A DNA stretch of 62,344 nt, taken from contig JAFYWG010000037.1 in the NCBI GenBank assembly GCA_017558115.1, positions 1 through 62,344 of the forward strand. Reading direction: 5' to 3'. Shown piece after piece: positions 1 through 53,506 of this stretch. The notes beneath the pieces are model-generated. The model was given only the letters and a program-made list of their open reading frames with translations, was not told the DNA's origin and ran no database searches. The stretch comes from Alistipes sp. GTDB lineage: Bacteria; Bacteroidota; Bacteroidia; Bacteroidales; Rikenellaceae. The position numbers and the translations under genes are program-made. How positions within the stretch are numbered: the first letter of the stretch is position 1; the number at the start of each line of letters is the position of its first letter.

Positions 1-263
<263 letters not shown>

Positions 264-264
<1 letters not shown>

Positions 265-388
265 TTTCGCGTGATAGCGGCGCATCTGCGACGCTTCAAT
301 CAAAGCCACCAATGGGACGTACGTCAAGTACTACCCATCGGTGGCTTTTTCATGTCAGCGCCACATCTGCACCACTCTGACGCGAAAT
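264..388 (+). repeat. Palindromic intergenic element, copy R1
   Basis: This 125-bp element starts inside the gap stop codon. Outer arms ATTTCGCGT (264-272) and ACGCGAAAT (380-388) pair. They enclose the conserved unpaired GAT/CTG positions, a second imperfect stem, and a core hairpin with stem 302-310/340-348 and ATGGG/CCCAT (312-316/334-338). One A311-C339 mismatch separates the two core stems. The loop carries two GTAC tetramers (319-322, 328-331) that can pair. A T run (346-350) follows the core, so read from gap it could also act as a terminator. Orientation is given relative to the upstream gene. Confidence 0.9.
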
Positions 389-390
389 AA

Positions 391-20867: not shown

Positions 20868-22538
20868 ATGAAAACAGATATCGAGATTGCTCGTGAGACC
20901 GAGCTTAAGAATATTCGTGAGGTTGCCGCACAGGTAGGCTTCCCCGAGGATGAGGTGTTTAACTATGGTAAGTACATCGCAAAGGTCCCTTACCGCCTTA
21001 TCGACGAGCATAAGGTAGCTAAGAGTCACCTTATCCTTGTAACCGCTATCACTGCAACTAAGGCGGGAGTAGGTAAGACCACCGTGAGCATTGGCCTTGG
21101 TATGGGTCTTAACCACATCGGCAAGAAGGCTATTATCGCGTTGCGTGAGCCATCGTTGGGCCCCTGCTTCGGCATGAAGGGTGGTGCAACAGGTGGTGGC
21201 TATGCGCAGGTATTGCCCTCGGAGGATATCAACCTCCACTTCACTGGCGACTTCCACGCCATCACATCGGCAAATAACCTTATCGCTGCGCTCTTGGATA
21301 ACTACCTCTACCACAACCGCTCGCAGCAGCCTGGTTTGAAGAAGGTTATGTGGCGCCGCGTGCTCGACATGAACGACCGCTCGTTGCGTAACATCGTATC
21401 GGGTCTTGGTGGCTCGGCAAATGGCATTCCCACAGAGACAGGCTTCGACATCACTCCCGCATCGGAGATTATGGCGATCCTCTGCCTTGCGCGCAACGTC
21501 GATGACCTCTACGCTCGTATCGGTCGCATCGTGCTTGGCGTGCGCTATGATGACACCCCATTCACTGTCAACGACCTCGGCGTGACAGGTGCAGTAGTAG
21601 CCTTGTTGAAGGATGCTATCAACCCCAACCTTGTGCAGACAACTGAGCACAACCCAGTTATTATCCACGGTGGTCCCTTTGCGAATATCGCACACGGCTG
21701 TAACTCGGTGATTGCTACAAAGATGGCGATGAGCCATGCTGAATATACTGTTACAGAGGCTGGCTTCGGTGCCGACCTCGGTGCTGAGAAGTTCCTCGAC
21801 ATTAAGTGCCGTCAGTCAGGCTTGAAGCCCGATCTTACAGTTTTGGTTGCCTCTACACTTGCTCTTAAGATGCACGGTGGTGTGCCCGAGACAGAGATTA
21901 AGTTGCCCAACCCCGAGGGTCTCAAGCAGGGCTTCGCAAACCTCGATCGCCACGTTGCAAACCTCAAGAAGTTTGGCCAGACGGTCCTCGTATGCTTCAA
22001 CCGCTTCGCAAGCGATACCGACGACGAGATCGCTATGGTTATGGAGCACTGTGAGCAGCTTGGCGTGCGCTGCGTTATCAACAACGCATATGCTGAGGGT
22101 GGTGCTGGTGCTGCAGACTTGGCACGTGCCGCAGTCGAGCTTATCGAGACTGAGCCATCTAAGCCTATCAACTTTGCATACGACCTCGAGGATAGCCTCA
22201 AGGAGAAGATTACGAAGGTTGCGAAGAACATCTACGGCGCTGGTAGCGTTGTCTTTGGTCCTCGCGCACAGAAGGAGATTGCGCTTCTCGAGAAGTGGGG
22301 CATGGGCAACCTCCCCGTATGTATCGCCAAGACGCAGTTCTCATTTAGCGCCGATGCTAAGCGTTACGGTAGCGTTGAGGGCTTCGAGATCAACATCAAG
22401 GATATCGAGCTTAACGCAGGTAGTGGCTTCGTGGTAGCCCTTGCAGGTGATATTATGCGTATGCCAGGTTTGAGCAAGAATCCTCAGGCAAGCCATATCC
22501 GTCTTGCGGAGGATGGTAACGTTGAGGGCATCGTTTAA
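20868..22538 (+). CDS. fhs: Formate--tetrahydrofolate ligase
   Basis: 556 residues, full family length. It makes 10-formyl-THF from formate, THF and ATP. The ATP P-loop is [14 protein letters not shown] (about 63-76). [19 protein letters not shown] and HFTGDFHAI are signature blocks, and the C-terminal [16 protein letters not shown] is intact. It links formate to purine synthesis and to the serine/glycine genes nearby (gcvT, gcvP, serine dehydratase). Two tandem copies of the palindromic element follow immediately after the stop. Confidence 0.98.
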
Positions 22539-22664
22539 TTTGTTGTGATAATGGCGCATCTACATCCGCTAACGAATTATCTTAGCAATGGGCAGTACGC
22601 TTAAGTACAGCCCATCGCTTCGAAATTCGCCGAGCGTTGTATCTGCACCATTCTGACAACAAAT
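22538..22664 (+). repeat. Palindromic intergenic element, copy R2
   Basis: Arms ATTTGTTGT (22538-22546) and ACAACAAAT (22656-22664) pair. The conserved GTGATA and TCTGAC segments follow. The core is ATGGGC, two GTAC tetramers and GCCCAT. Together with R3 it forms a subtype in which GAATT/AATTC replaces the CAATCA/TCATGTC internal loop of R1, R5 and R6. It begins in the fhs stop codon. Confidence 0.9.
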
Positions 22665-22790
22665 AAGTTGTGATAATAGCTCATCTACTGCCGCTAACGA
22701 ATTATCTTAGCAATGGGCAGTACGCCATAGTACAGCCCATCGCTTCGAAATTCGCCGAGCGTTGTATCTGAACTATTCTGATAACAAATT
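22665..22790 (+). repeat. Palindromic intergenic element, copy R3 (tandem with R2)
   Basis: The core region, from the GAATTATC arm to the GTTGTATCTG arm, is nearly identical to R2, with a changed loop (GCCAT for GCTTA). The outer arms no longer pair perfectly, and the lower stem has matched changes (ATAGCTCA against TGAACTAT). This points to a recent tandem duplication followed by drift. Confidence 0.85.
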
Positions 22791-22805
22791 TGTGTAGCAT
22801 CAATC

Positions 22806-24136: not shown

Positions 24137-24185
24137 AATTCAAGGAATTTAGGGAGTTTAGCGACGGTGCTAAACTCTCTTTTTT
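24137..24185 (+). terminator. Intrinsic terminator after mqnD, built on nonamer repeats
   Basis: GAGTTTAGC (24154-24162) pairs with GCTAAACTC (24169-24177), followed by TCTTTTTTG. The upstream arm belongs to a run of the GAATTTAGN repeat. Confidence 0.8.
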
Positions 24186-24319
24186 GTTTAGTGGCGTAAG
24201 AGACAAAAGAGAAGAAAAGGATGATGCGGACAAAGGCTCTAAAGCGGCGAAAGAGTTCAAAAGTGAGTGTGGTATATTTTTGATTTTAGGGGAGGAGTTT
24301 TAGTATATCGCAAAAAAAG

Positions 24320-24363
24320 AAATCCCACGGGATAGTACTTTGACGTACAGCCCGTGGGGATTT
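24320..24363 (-). repeat. Palindromic element core, copy R4
   Basis: AAATCCC-ACGGG (24320-24331) and CCCGT-G-GGGATTT (24351-24363) enclose the two-GTAC loop in the reverse order of R1. It therefore has minus orientation, downstream of gdhA beyond R5. It lacks the outer arms of the full element, and has a bulged G where the others have the A-C mismatch. Confidence 0.75.
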
Positions 24364-24415
24364 GTTTGTGAAGGAGGCAATCTTTTTTTTTGTTGTGCCT
24401 CTAATCATTGTGCTA

Positions 24416-24539
24416 CTTTCATGTTAGAGTGGTGCAGTAGTGGCGCTGACATGAAGAAGCCCCGGATGGGTAGTACTTGCGTACGTCCCATTCGGGGCTT
24501 TGATTGAAGCGTCGCTAATGCGCCGCTATCACATGAAAG
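24416..24539 (-). repeat. Palindromic intergenic element, copy R5
   Basis: Arms CTTTCATGT (24416-24424) and ACATGAAAG (24531-24539) pair. Read on the minus strand it closely matches R1 (GTGATAGCGGCGCAT, GACGCTTCAATCAAAGCCCC). On the plus strand the core pairs AAGCCCCG (24457-24464) with CGGGGCTT (24493-24500) and ATGGG with CCCAT, with G24465-T24492 at the conserved mismatch. It begins four bases after the gdhA stop and may terminate gdhA. Confidence 0.9.
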
Positions 24540-24542
24540 GTA

Positions 24543-25886
24543 TTAGATGATACCCTGCTCAAGCATAGCCTGTGCAACCTTCATGAAGCCAGCGATGTTA
24601 GCACCCTTAACGTAGTTAACAGTACCATCAGCCTGAGTACCGAACTGAACGCAAGCCTCGTGGATAGACTTCATGATGAAGTGGAGCTTATCGTCAACCT
24701 CCTCACCTGCCCATGAAATGTGCATACAGTTCTGAGTCATCTCAAGACCTGAAGTTGCTACACCACCAGCGTTAACTGCCTTACCAGGTGCGAAGAGGAT
24801 GCCTGCATCCTGGAATGCCTTGATAGCCTCAGGAGTACAACCCATGTTAGAAACCTCAGCGCAGCACCATGTACCGTTAGCCAAAAGCTCCTTAGCATCA
24901 GCCTCGTTCAACTCGTTCTGGAATGCGCAAGGAAGTGCGATGTCACACTTTACTGACCAAGCCTTCTTACCAGCTGTGAACTTACAAGCCTCGGGGAACT
25001 TAGTTGCCATATCCTCAACCTTGTTGCGGTTTGAAGAACGCATTACCAACATGTAGTCGATCATCTCGTTAGTGATACCTGCAGGGATCTCGCAAACACC
25101 GTCAGGACCAGAGATTGCAACAACCTTAGCGCCGAGCTCAACAGCCTTCTGTGAAGCACCCCAAGCAACGTTACCGAAGCCAGAAACAGCTACAGTCTTG
25201 CCCTTGATGTCCTTACCAGCCTTAGCCAACATATACTCTACGAAGTACAAAGCACCGTAACCAGTAGCCTCGGGACGGAGGATTGAACCACCCCAAGTCA
25301 TACCCTTACCAGTCAAAACGCCAGTGTGGTACTTACGAGCGAGCTTCTGGTACATACCATTGAGGAAGCCGATCTCACGACCACCAACACCTACGTCACC
25401 TGCGGGAACGTCAGTATCTACACCGATGTTGTTCCACAACTCCTGCATGAATGCCTGGCAGAAGCGCATGATCTCACCGTCAGACTTGCCAACGGGGTTG
25501 AAATCTGCACCACCCTTAGCACCACCCATAGGAAGGGTAGTCAACGCGTTCTTGAAAGTCTGCTCGAAACCGAGGAACTTCAACATTGAAGGGTTAACTG
25601 CAGGGTGGAAACGCAAACCGCCCTTGTAAGGACCGATAGCTGAGTTGAACTGTACACGGTAACCGAGGTTAGTCTGTACATCGCCATTGTCGTCTACCCA
25701 TGTAACACGGAAAGTGAAGATACGATCGGGCTCAACCATGCGCTCAACGATCTTTGCCTTCTCATACTCGGGGTGCTGGTTGTATACCTCCTCGATAGAC
25801 TCCAATACCTCCTGAACCGCCTGCAAGTACTCAGCCTCACCGGGGTGCTTGGCCTCCAAATTGGCCATAATAACTTTTACATCCAT
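24543..25886 (-). CDS. gdhA: Glutamate dehydrogenase, NADP-type hexameric
   Basis: 447 residues. Active-site motifs are LPMGGAKGGADFNP (catalytic Lys loop), PAGDVGVGGREIGFL and GKGMTWGGSILRPEATGYG. The nucleotide fold follows as VSGFGNVAWGASQKA. It interconverts glutamate and 2-oxoglutarate with ammonia in the cytosol. The length and N-terminus match the small hexameric, mostly NADPH-linked class. The leader of about 80 bases from the -7 box at 25974 is longer than others here. The codon choice is very uniform, as in a highly expressed gene. Confidence 0.97.
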   Translation of the reverse strand: MDVKVIMANLEAKHPGEAEYLQAVQEVLESIEEVYNQHPEYEKAKIVERMVEPDRIFTFRVTWVDDNGDVQTNLGYRVQFNSAIGPYKGGLRFHPAVNPSMLKFLGFEQTFKNALTTLPMGGAKGGADFNPVGKSDGEIMRFCQAFMQELWNNIGVDTDVPAGDVGVGGREIGFLNGMYQKLARKYHTGVLTGKGMTWGGSILRPEATGYGALYFVEYMLAKAGKDIKGKTVAVSGFGNVAWGASQKAVELGAKVVAISGPDGVCEIPAGITNEMIDYMLVMRSSNRNKVEDMATKFPEACKFTAGKKAWSVKCDIALPCAFQNELNEADAKELLANGTWCCAEVSNMGCTPEAIKAFQDAGILFAPGKAVNAGGVATSGLEMTQNCMHISWAGEEVDDKLHFIMKSIHEACVQFGTQADGTVNYVKGANIAGFMKVAQAMLEQGII

Positions 25887-52310: not shown

Positions 52311-53390
52311 TTGCAAGTGAAAGGAAAGAGATTGGGCATCCGCAAGCATCTGGGTCTCAAGCTATTCAAGGGACTATACGATGGTGTTGTAGAGCGCCAC
52401 GAGTTGCGTACACTCTTTTGGGAGTGTACGCTTCGTTGTAATTTGAAGTGCCGTCATTGCGGTAGCGACTGTCGTGTCGACGTGTCGGAGGCAGATATGC
52501 CTCTTGAGGACTTCCTCAAGGTTCTTGACGAGGAGGTTACGCCCAATGTAGACCCCGCAAAGGTGCTTATCATCTTCTCGGGTGGTGAGGTCTTAGTGCG
52601 TAAGGATCTCGAGGAGGCGGGACGCGAGGTTACGAAGCGCGGATATATGTGGGGTATGGTGACAAATGGCATGAGCCTCACGCGTGAGCGCCTACGCTCG
52701 CTCGTGGCGGCGGGCTTGCGCACGGTGTCGGTGAGCTTCGATGGCTTCGAGGATGTGCACAACTACATTCGCCAAAATCCCGATAGCTTTGCGCGTGCGC
52801 GCCAGGCTGTGGCTAATATCCGTGAGGTCGAGGGCCTTACCTACGACGTTATCACATGTGCCACGCCCGCTATTATGGATAGATTGGAGGAGTGGAAGGA
52901 GTTTCTTATCTCCGAGGGTATCTGTCGCTGGCGCATCTTCTCTGTCTTTCCAGCGGGGCGTGCCAAGCGCGACGAGACGCTGCACCTAAACCCCGAGCAG
53001 TTTCGCACGCTTATGGAGTTTATACGCAAGACGCGCAAGGAGGGGCACATAAACCTCAGCTACGCTTGCGAGGGCTTCCTTGGCGGCTACGAGACCGAGG
53101 TTCGCGACCACTTCTATATGTGTACTGCGGGTGTTACGGTGGCCTCAATACGTGTCAATGGCGATATATCTGGTTGCACCAGCGTGCGTGGCAACTATGC
53201 GCAGGGCAATATCTATCGCGATAGGTTCTGGGATGTGTGGCAGAACAGGTTCACCCCCTTCCGCAACCGCGAGTGGACTAAGAAGGATGAGTGCGCCGAT
53301 TGTAAGGTGTGGGAGTTCTGCCGTGGCGGAGGCATGCACTTGCGAGATGATAATGGTAAACTTATGTATTGTCACTATAATTTCTTGTGA
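52311..53390 (+). CDS. Radical SAM/SPASM enzyme paired with the lipoprotein
   Basis: 359 residues; the start is uncertain (TTG 52311 or GTG 52317, no ATG before the conserved LRTLFWECTLRC). The [4Fe-4S]-AdoMet motif is CNLKCRHC at about 43-50. The SPASM-like C-terminus has Cys near 270 and 285, then CADCKVWEFC at 327-336 and a final Cys near 356, ligands for auxiliary clusters. SPASM enzymes usually modify peptides. The N-terminal LFWECTLRCNLKCRHCGSDC-type block matches the subfamily found beside small lipoproteins. It lies 20 bases after that gene. Its stop codon sits inside palindromic element R6. Confidence 0.85.
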   Translation: MQVKGKRLGIRKHLGLKLFKGLYDGVVERHELRTLFWECTLRCNLKCRHCGSDCRVDVSEADMPLEDFLKVLDEEVTPNVDPAKVLIIFSGGEVLVRKDLEEAGREVTKRGYMWGMVTNGMSLTRERLRSLVAAGLRTVSVSFDGFEDVHNYIRQNPDSFARARQAVANIREVEGLTYDVITCATPAIMDRLEEWKEFLISEGICRWRIFSVFPAGRAKRDETLHLNPEQFRTLMEFIRKTRKEGHINLSYACEGFLGGYETEVRDHFYMCTAGVTVASIRVNGDISGCTSVRGNYAQGNIYRDRFWDVWQNRFTPFRNREWTKKDECADCKVWEFCRGGGMHLRDDNGKLMYCHYNFL

Positions 53391-53506
53391 TAAGGGGTCA
53401 TTCTCGGCCTCTCAATCAATAGCCCGAATGGGACGTACGTCAAAGTACTACCCATCCGGGCTATTTTCATGTCGAGACCAAGCCTGACCCCTTCTGACAA
53501 GAAATT
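53379..53506 (+). repeat. Palindromic intergenic element, copy R6
   Basis: Arms AATTTCTTGT (53379-53388) and ACAAGAAATT (53497-53506), then AAGGGGTCA and TGACCCCTT, pair almost perfectly. The core is ATAGCCCG/CGGGCTAT, mismatch A53427-C53456, ATGGG/CCCAT and the double-GTAC loop. It overlaps the last four codons of the radical-SAM gene and may terminate both it and the convergent ompA gene. Confidence 0.92.

Follow-up and report, generated by a model that had tools for sequence, protein, structure and literature searches.

The window, that is the whole stretch of DNA analysed, has 62,344 nucleotides and is contig C16 of a draft genome (1.88 Mb, 84.9% complete) from an Alistipes-like lineage of the Rikenellaceae. 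It contains several copies of an element of about 127 bp that forms an imperfect hairpin. All five full copies listed in an earlier note on this DNA are present, with coordinates right to within a few bases. A further copy at 24320-24363, described there as core-only, exists too, but it is a piece of a more extensive decayed element next to the 24416 copy. The observation that the leading copies sit at stop codons holds for each of the four genes concerned, as given in the following list of features.

263..389, plus strand: full copy of subtype 1, left end inside the TAA of the GAPDH gene
22537..22664, plus strand: full copy of subtype 2 (GAATT/AATTC inner stem), left end inside the TAA of the FTHFS gene (20868-22538)
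22665..22791, plus strand: full copy in direct tandem with the 22537..22664 copy
24306..24376, minus strand: second element in decay, retaining core and inner arms (model positions 27-101), on the distal side of the 24413-24541 copy
24413..24541, minus strand: full copy of subtype 1, 2 nt past the TAA of the minus-strand GdhA gene (24543-25886)
53379..53506, plus strand: full copy of subtype 1 at the end of a radical-SAM/SPASM gene, whose frame stops at the element's own TGA
53379..53387, plus strand: left arm of the outer stem, AATTTCTTG, with its partner at 53498-53506
53387..53392, plus strand: conserved GTGATA, facing TCTGAC at 53493-53498
53393..53412, plus strand: left-arm segment that might also form a local hairpin, judged from the folding means per subtype
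53420..53463, plus strand: terminator-like core stem ATGGG-N2-GTAC-loop-GTAC-N2-CCCAT with GC clamp
53464..53467, plus strand: short U-tract (TTTT) 3' of the core in the sense direction
53498..53506, plus strand: right arm of the outer stem, CAAGAAATT

From the outside inwards, the element consists of an outer stem (commonly AATTTCTTG...CAAGAAATT), the near-fixed pair GTGATA/TCTGAC, two arms of about 30 nt and the core hairpin, which is often followed by U. The outer stem covaries as proposed: it reads CTTG, GTTG, CGCG, CATG, GATG, CACACCTTG and others, with the complement present each time; in a few copies the stem is imperfect (e.g. C31_1813, C43_19734). GTGATA/TCTGAC had been taken as fixed and is indeed near-invariant, but some copies have GTGAAA/TTTGAC instead. 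In these the T·C mismatch is replaced by an A-T pair through a change on both sides together (C5:36068, C29:151681, C32:43065 and C17:33432 in genome G059; C43:126753 and C9:399 in G000). Since GTGAAA faces TTTGAC there, one of the apparent mismatches covaries too. A reading of GTGATA/CTGA as a kink-turn or box C/D motif, weighed by eye, was set aside, as the spacing leaves a one-base bulge.

Instead of the two subtypes previously distinguished, at least three were found, which have the ends and the core in common and differ in the inner arms. They were called from short text patterns, giving 87, 50 and 62 copies, with 47 of 246 classed as 'other'; the latter enter the strand comparison of all 246 copies and are left out of the subtype, arm-folding, parsimony G·U, U-run and terminal-branch analyses.

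Occurrence in the genus and family

With the 53379 copy as query, blastn returned 47 matches in the own genome (best non-self match at E 4e-44), and an iterated profile over the fetched loci detected 58 full or partial copies, of which 43 exceed 110 bp. Long contigs, picked among those already showing matches and then read whole or mostly, held 32 copies or pieces in 420 kb of the own genome and 56 in 798 kb of the congener G040. A covariance model (R1) matched the window copies at 53379, 263, 24415 and 22537 with E values of 8e-30 to 3e-20 and the 24306-24376 piece at E 0.002; the second tandem copy at 22665 was absent from its list at E 0.1, yet scored 69 bits with nhmmer. Since the window copies were in the training set of the model, the remainder of the genome is the independent test.

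The covariance model for the genome surveys was built on 35 copies (alignment A1, comprising 35 of the 43 full copies; alignment A2 comprises 20 copies of subtype 1). In one sample the model was positive in 47 of 73 genus genomes (the own one among them), compared to 1 of 47 from outside the genus, the split being taken from the genus numbering. The family-wide search was positive in 109 of 268 genomes, 104 from the genus and five from two other genera (3 of 22 genera). The dispersal that the earlier note described within the window is thus larger than stated there. Matches per genome were counted up to a ceiling of 29 or 13 in these surveys. The exact 23-base left end occurs in at least 119 stretches; among the matches listed (80), all are from Alistipes sp. 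or Rikenellaceae MAGs, and most of these MAGs carry ruminant hindgut sample names. Viral contigs gave no match to two exact patterns, and no plasmid matched the 53379 copy.

In accordance with the statement that no named family fits, no Rfam match at the gathering score was obtained across the window. At E values up to 1 the tandem pair (22537-22791) gave none, and the 53379 copy gave one miRNA-precursor match with 16 bits versus a cut-off of 79. Among the open-licence PMC papers listed in targeted literature searches, no title or abstract opening describes such an element from Alistipes or Rikenellaceae. To our knowledge, no familiar repeat family accounts for stop-codon placement together with one orientation and antisense folding.

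Placement at stop codons and turnover

Most copies are placed exactly at a stop codon, with a bias towards one orientation. An open frame of at least 80 codons lies upstream of 105 of the 126 non-redundant copies whose left end is exact, and in 79 of these 105 the stop is T|AA at an offset of exactly -1, although the tally repeats the same gene across several species and its rows are not independent. In most of the other 26, the TAA is followed by a few extra bases, or what is left of an older copy lies there. In G059, where 28 of 48 matches were examined, the stop lies at -1 in 20, at -5 in four and at -16 behind an old remnant in one; of the remaining three, one frame runs into the element's TGA and two copies lie directly behind an older one.

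The contig survey (own genome and G040) comprised 88 elements, 63 of them leading copies. Genes were taken as the longest open reading frames of at least 80 codons, so that some short neighbours are missed and some calls may be spurious. On this basis, 57 of the 63 leading copies share the strand of the gene before them; the other six, two of them at a contig end, do not. Among the leading copies, 52 have both a neighbour on their own strand and a left end that is nearly complete: T|AA is hit exactly by 26 of them, the range of -6 to +4 takes in 38, and in four the frame runs into the element's own TGA. The outliers are three at +9 to +11, four at +29 to +40 inside another repeat, and three far copies. 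At the far copy C5:16520 a 189-codon frame ends at T|AA, and the far copy C4:176896 also opens T|AATTT. Ten of the 88 elements were flagged inside a called open reading frame, some of these simple calls being possibly spurious. For comparison, element-free gene ends contain on average 1.69 TAA and 5.47 TA per 60 nt past the stop, and their stops are TAA in 170 of 331 cases (51%) and TAG in 148. Uniform use of T^AA would, from 1.69 TAA per 60 nt and 51% TAA stops, place about 23% of copies at the stop.

Two copies adjoin older ones: G000 C13:36927 sits within an older left end, at its GTGAT^AA, and the copy at L081 lies behind a similar remnant. Tandems of a new beside an old copy have a nearly identical junction, and AAAT-TA-ATTT often recurs where copies stand in tandem. 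For a TA target duplication, the left end T|AATTT and many tandem junctions would fit; the right junction is TA in only 25 of 107 tallied flanks. Similar degenerate tails (GGGTCGTGGTGCTAAT...) occur 3' of elements at different genes (e.g. L095, L098) and may be remnants of older copies.

The element has spread recently, near-identical copies being found at different genes. Genome G059 has five copies without a difference over 128 bases and 12 copies with at least 97% identity, and the upstream proteins differ at the loci where they were read. This supports the mobile or REP/MITE-like nature suggested before. Copy C12:65278 of the same genome has the master's sequence except for two compensated pairs of the outer stem (6/123, 8/121) and is best read as a converted interior within a resident outer stem.

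An empty-site search led from 360 clusters to 71 flank pairs; among the 60 pairs listed, most belong to one repeat of G040, the B-repeat. Its match table has 32 copies, of which 10 contain the element at one fixed internal site and 22 lack it, their two halves lying directly against each other (copies read: 6 filled, 10 empty). Examples are G040 C4:251208-251500, C6:50500-50810, C4:60360-60540 and others (L308-L319). The B-repeat opens with GAGGCTGAATAAAAAGT, and at least one copy has an end that is nearly complementary to this. Of five empty-site alignments inspected, two (A and B) are clean comparisons between species. In both, the element-free orthologs end in TAG, the filled copies occupy the stop, and the outer stems take in the host gene's last codons (GTTTAATTG/CAATTAAAC and CGATTTATA/TATAAATCG). 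Within the window, the protein encoded before the 53379 copy ends in ...CHYNFL and its G040 ortholog (81% identical) in ...CHYKMLK, which is consistent with a replacement of the last codons of the radical-SAM gene by the element.

Orthologs in G040 have the element for 17 of 47 element-bearing genes and for 6 of 129 others, and those in the own genome for 12 of 35 and 4 of 69, respectively; here, too, several rows represent the same gene in different species. Between the own genome and G040, 81 reciprocal pairs share the element in two cases, have it on one side only in five and three, and lack it on both sides in 71. Sharing above the level of other genes together with one-sided pairs indicates positions that are partly inherited and partly turned over. 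After nqrF, 10 of 11 genomes with at least 86% identity have an element at the stop or a few bases from it, with subtype and outer stem varying by eye; G038 has none. In more distant genomes the same gene end was seen, again by eye, to have element-like hairpins in some and plain terminators or other structure elsewhere. Another genus lineage has a cloverleaf-like structure with a central terminator after nqrF (L122-L125, L127). It was considered as an analogous repeat in the G024 lineage and dismissed, since a single copy in G024 makes it no repeat there.

Pairing and the strand that folds

Pairing is maintained through compensatory changes and through G·U pairs on the antisense strand (relative to the gene upstream), which folds better. 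Lower folding energies for this strand were obtained for 243 of 246 full copies, with a mean advantage of 12 to 16 kcal/mol per subtype and 5 to 7 times more G·U pairs. In an antisense alignment of 20 own-genome copies, 97.0% of the cells are paired compared to 82.2% in shuffles and 40-46% in slid alignments, and 30 of 48 pairs are changed on both sides versus 16.7 in shuffles. These values bear out the claim of a structured element with covariation. As the structure scored in this test was derived from the antisense alignment, which favours antisense, a strand-neutral pairing was used as a repeat. Parsimony on that pairing gave changes to antisense-only and sense-only G·U pairs in ratios of 150:38 for the arms, 38:16 for the outer stem and 40:26 for the core, with subtype 3 at 6:8 in its outer stem. 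On terminal branches the ratio is 108:59, with 120 double Watson-Crick changes and 147 breaks, where it has to be considered that trees of recombining repeats are unreliable. At unpaired sites C>T changes exceed G>A (64 vs 35, raw counts), an excess that would push in the opposite direction to the antisense G·U bias.

The asymmetry of the wobble pairs points to the strand opposite to the message as the selected one, RNA and single-stranded DNA fitting alike. A structure kept mainly for the 3' end of the upstream gene's own mRNA, as envisaged earlier, is at odds with the maintenance of pairing on the opposite strand. The mRNA of a convergent gene was rejected as the cause: copies with convergent (24) and with tandem (16) neighbours show an equal antisense advantage, so that an opposing gene's mRNA is no explanation. 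Convergent neighbours themselves are weakly enriched (odds ratio 1.8, p 0.08). TAnnTTTG is a Bacteroidota-type promoter motif. Tried as the one motif for a dedicated antisense promoter, it was not enriched (5 of 171 antisense vs 8 of 171 sense flanks), and such a promoter was discarded as a candidate.

Folded alone, the left arm beats its shuffles in all three subtypes, the sense strand being somewhat better than the antisense strand (subtype 1: sense -10.6 vs -4.9 for shuffles; antisense -8.7). The right arm alone favours antisense over sense in subtypes 1 (-6.7 vs -2.3) and 3 (-4.8 vs -1.8), with scarcely a difference in subtype 2 (-4.8 vs -4.3). The mean numbers of U after the core on the sense and antisense strand, 6.1/4.2, 3.7/5.3 and 5.8/5.1 for the three subtypes, suggest a largely two-way terminator, presumably stronger in sense direction for subtype 1 and in antisense direction for subtype 2. 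A pattern scan flagged a gene-direction terminator in one of four element clusters of the window; two further terminator scans placed an opposite-strand site in the 24416 copy, no gene-direction site, and nothing in the 53379 copy. From sequence, a terminator role appears plausible for the core alone.

Mobilisation, related systems and interpretation

Three families of possible mobilising enzymes (Y1_Tnp, DDE_3 and reverse transcriptase) were searched for in genomes of which many are incomplete. Y1_Tnp (PF01797) gave no match in the own genome (85% complete) and is absent in all 45 genus genomes tested, own included; it was found in 22 of 28 other genomes, and an E. coli control was positive. 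A link to a RAYT/Y1 transposase, which the earlier note had considered, thus fails at 0 of 45, and RAYT/IS200 mobilisation was rejected for the genus genomes tested. The IS630-type DDE_3 domain (PF13358) exceeded the cut-off in none of 67 genus genomes, with weak sub-threshold matches in G002, G018 and G061, and thus has no support as the mover. Reverse transcriptase PF00078 occurs in 22 of 67 genus genomes. It is present in the element-rich G003, G006, G025, G029, G040 and G041 and gave no match in the element-rich G000, G011, G017 and G022, and the matches include neither G059 nor G044. Its presence does not track the element, and it has no support as the mover either.

Passages of PMC3116915 describe REPINs as short inverted-repeat hairpins of high copy number that are extragenic, randomly distributed within extragenic space, and show compensatory changes and an alternative clover fold. 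On this description, the inverted hairpin, the high copy number, the extragenic location and the compensatory changes are shared; the element differs in lacking Y1_Tnp in 45 of 45 genus genomes and in lying mostly at stops in one orientation. The inverted doublet hairpin with compensatory changes, which serves to recognise REPIN/RAYT systems, is found in the element, and with no Y1_Tnp in the genus it is no REPIN by the defining test. Parts of PMC2759123 give ERIC (RU-1) as an intergenic repeat of 127 bp, and RUP, ERIC and relatives mostly have TA ends according to passages of PMC2229807. The size and the mobile-type intergenic occurrence are similar, whereas taxon, stop docking, strand-specific pairing and the lack of an IS630-type partner set the element apart by description. 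With intrinsic terminators it has the GC stem of the core and the U-run in common; unlike these, the core lies inside a rod, the 3' half of the rod would be outside a terminated sense transcript, and the pairing favours antisense. Integron attC sites also act as a folded single strand, have about 120 bp, follow a stop codon and are oriented with the gene; they contain GTTRRRY/RYYYAAC boxes. The element resembles them in the folded single strand, length, position after the stop and gene orientation, but its ends lack these boxes by eye and its neighbours are dispersed genes.

The best reading is that of a new non-autonomous hairpin repeat with REPIN/ERIC-like behaviour, a terminator-like core and stop placement. 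Its left end would enter T^AA, the T and the element's AA together giving a TAA stop. In analogy to the proposal for REPINs, a single strand that has to form a rod, with about 48 pairs and internal loops that are fixed, may be the spreading intermediate, and resident copies would later be remodelled by gene conversion among themselves. The core could act as an intrinsic, largely bidirectional terminator, by which the element would sit harmlessly at gene ends. We tentatively favour this combination of multiplication in genomes, docked in T^AA, with spread via a single-strand hairpin and later conversion, while giving it somewhat less than an even chance. Its patchy presence (47/73 and 109/268 genomes, see above) counts for mobility. 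Pure mobility, however, does not predict the partial conservation of positions between species (17/47 vs 6/129; nqrF 10/11). Also counting against this reading are the lack of a mobilising gene among the three families searched, the TA at only 25 of 107 right junctions and the similar tails at different loci. A selfish hairpin whose insertion targets stops, docking in T^AA, restoring the stop with its own bases, bringing its own terminator and multiplying via a hairpin of the template strand by means other than Y1/RAYT, an IS630-type enzyme or a resident reverse transcriptase, we regard as rather unlikely.

The main rival to mobility is function in place, a serious if doubtful possibility, to which the gene-specific outer stems reaching into the last codons of two diverged copies and the antisense G·U excess on terminal branches (108:59) point. 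It could take the form of a functional RNA that is kept as a bidirectional 3'-end module: the left-arm hairpin and the core would end the sense mRNA, and transcripts from downstream would form the full rod, blocking antisense transcription or protecting the opposing mRNA. The folding of the left arm beyond shuffles in sense direction in all three subtypes (nearly equal in antisense), that of the right arm in antisense for subtypes 1 and 3 (not clearly for subtype 2), and the U-runs past the core on both strands are what such a module would need, and the extended outer stems, the partly conserved positions and the compensated changes on terminal branches (120 double Watson-Crick vs 147 breaks) go in the same direction. 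This is opposed by an antisense advantage that is equal at tandem and convergent genes with only weak convergent enrichment, by the missing antisense promoter signal, by the many genus genomes without the element, and by a gene-direction terminator in just one of four window clusters; we consider the module conceivable, though somewhat doubtful. Ancient gene-end modules that ectopic gene conversion keeps alike, with transposition rare or absent and bursts being converted residents, would agree with the varying subtype of the nqrF element in most close relatives (by eye), with the master interior and own two-sided outer stem of G059 C12:65278, with orthologous positions shared above chance and with the similar tails behind different copies. 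Yet 30 of 47 G040 orthologs of element-bearing genes have no element (several rows being one gene in different species), the G040 B-repeat occurs both with (10) and without (22) it, the 53379 protein departs from its ortholog starting at the element's first base, and tandems of new beside old have almost the same junction, making conversion without transposition decidedly unlikely. Least probable, and quite improbable in our view, is an ordinary TA-target MITE of a DDE transposase, lost or of another family, with the palindrome as terminal inverted repeats and selection clearing other sites. T|AATTT can be read as TA + ATTT, AAAT-TA-ATTT is frequent at tandem junctions, and the mostly TA-ended RUP, ERIC and relatives (as in passages of PMC2229807) offer a parallel; the 0 of 67 genus genomes above the DDE_3 cut-off (three weak matches below) and the TA in merely 25 of 107 right flanks speak against it. 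Moreover, a fixed orientation with exact placement at the stop in 75% goes beyond what the TA background (5.5 per 60 nt) would give, and the terminal repeats vary yet stay complementary.

Small palindromic repeats are common in bacteria, and it is often uncertain whether the selected trait is mobility or an RNA function. For the hairpin repeat described here, the wobble asymmetry points to the selected strand and at most occupied stops the element is placed with single-base accuracy, making the question directly testable. Unusual are the docking at stops in one orientation and the strand-specific constraint on the template side, which suggest how repeats can spread without breaking genes. The subtypes swapped at one gene end between species further provide a natural experiment on gene conversion between repeats. 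As a separate observation, several gene ends have long imperfect hairpins made of repeated short units of the types TTTAGGGAG / CTCCCTAAA and GACCACAGA (downstream flanks of L079-L092; window 24151-24180).
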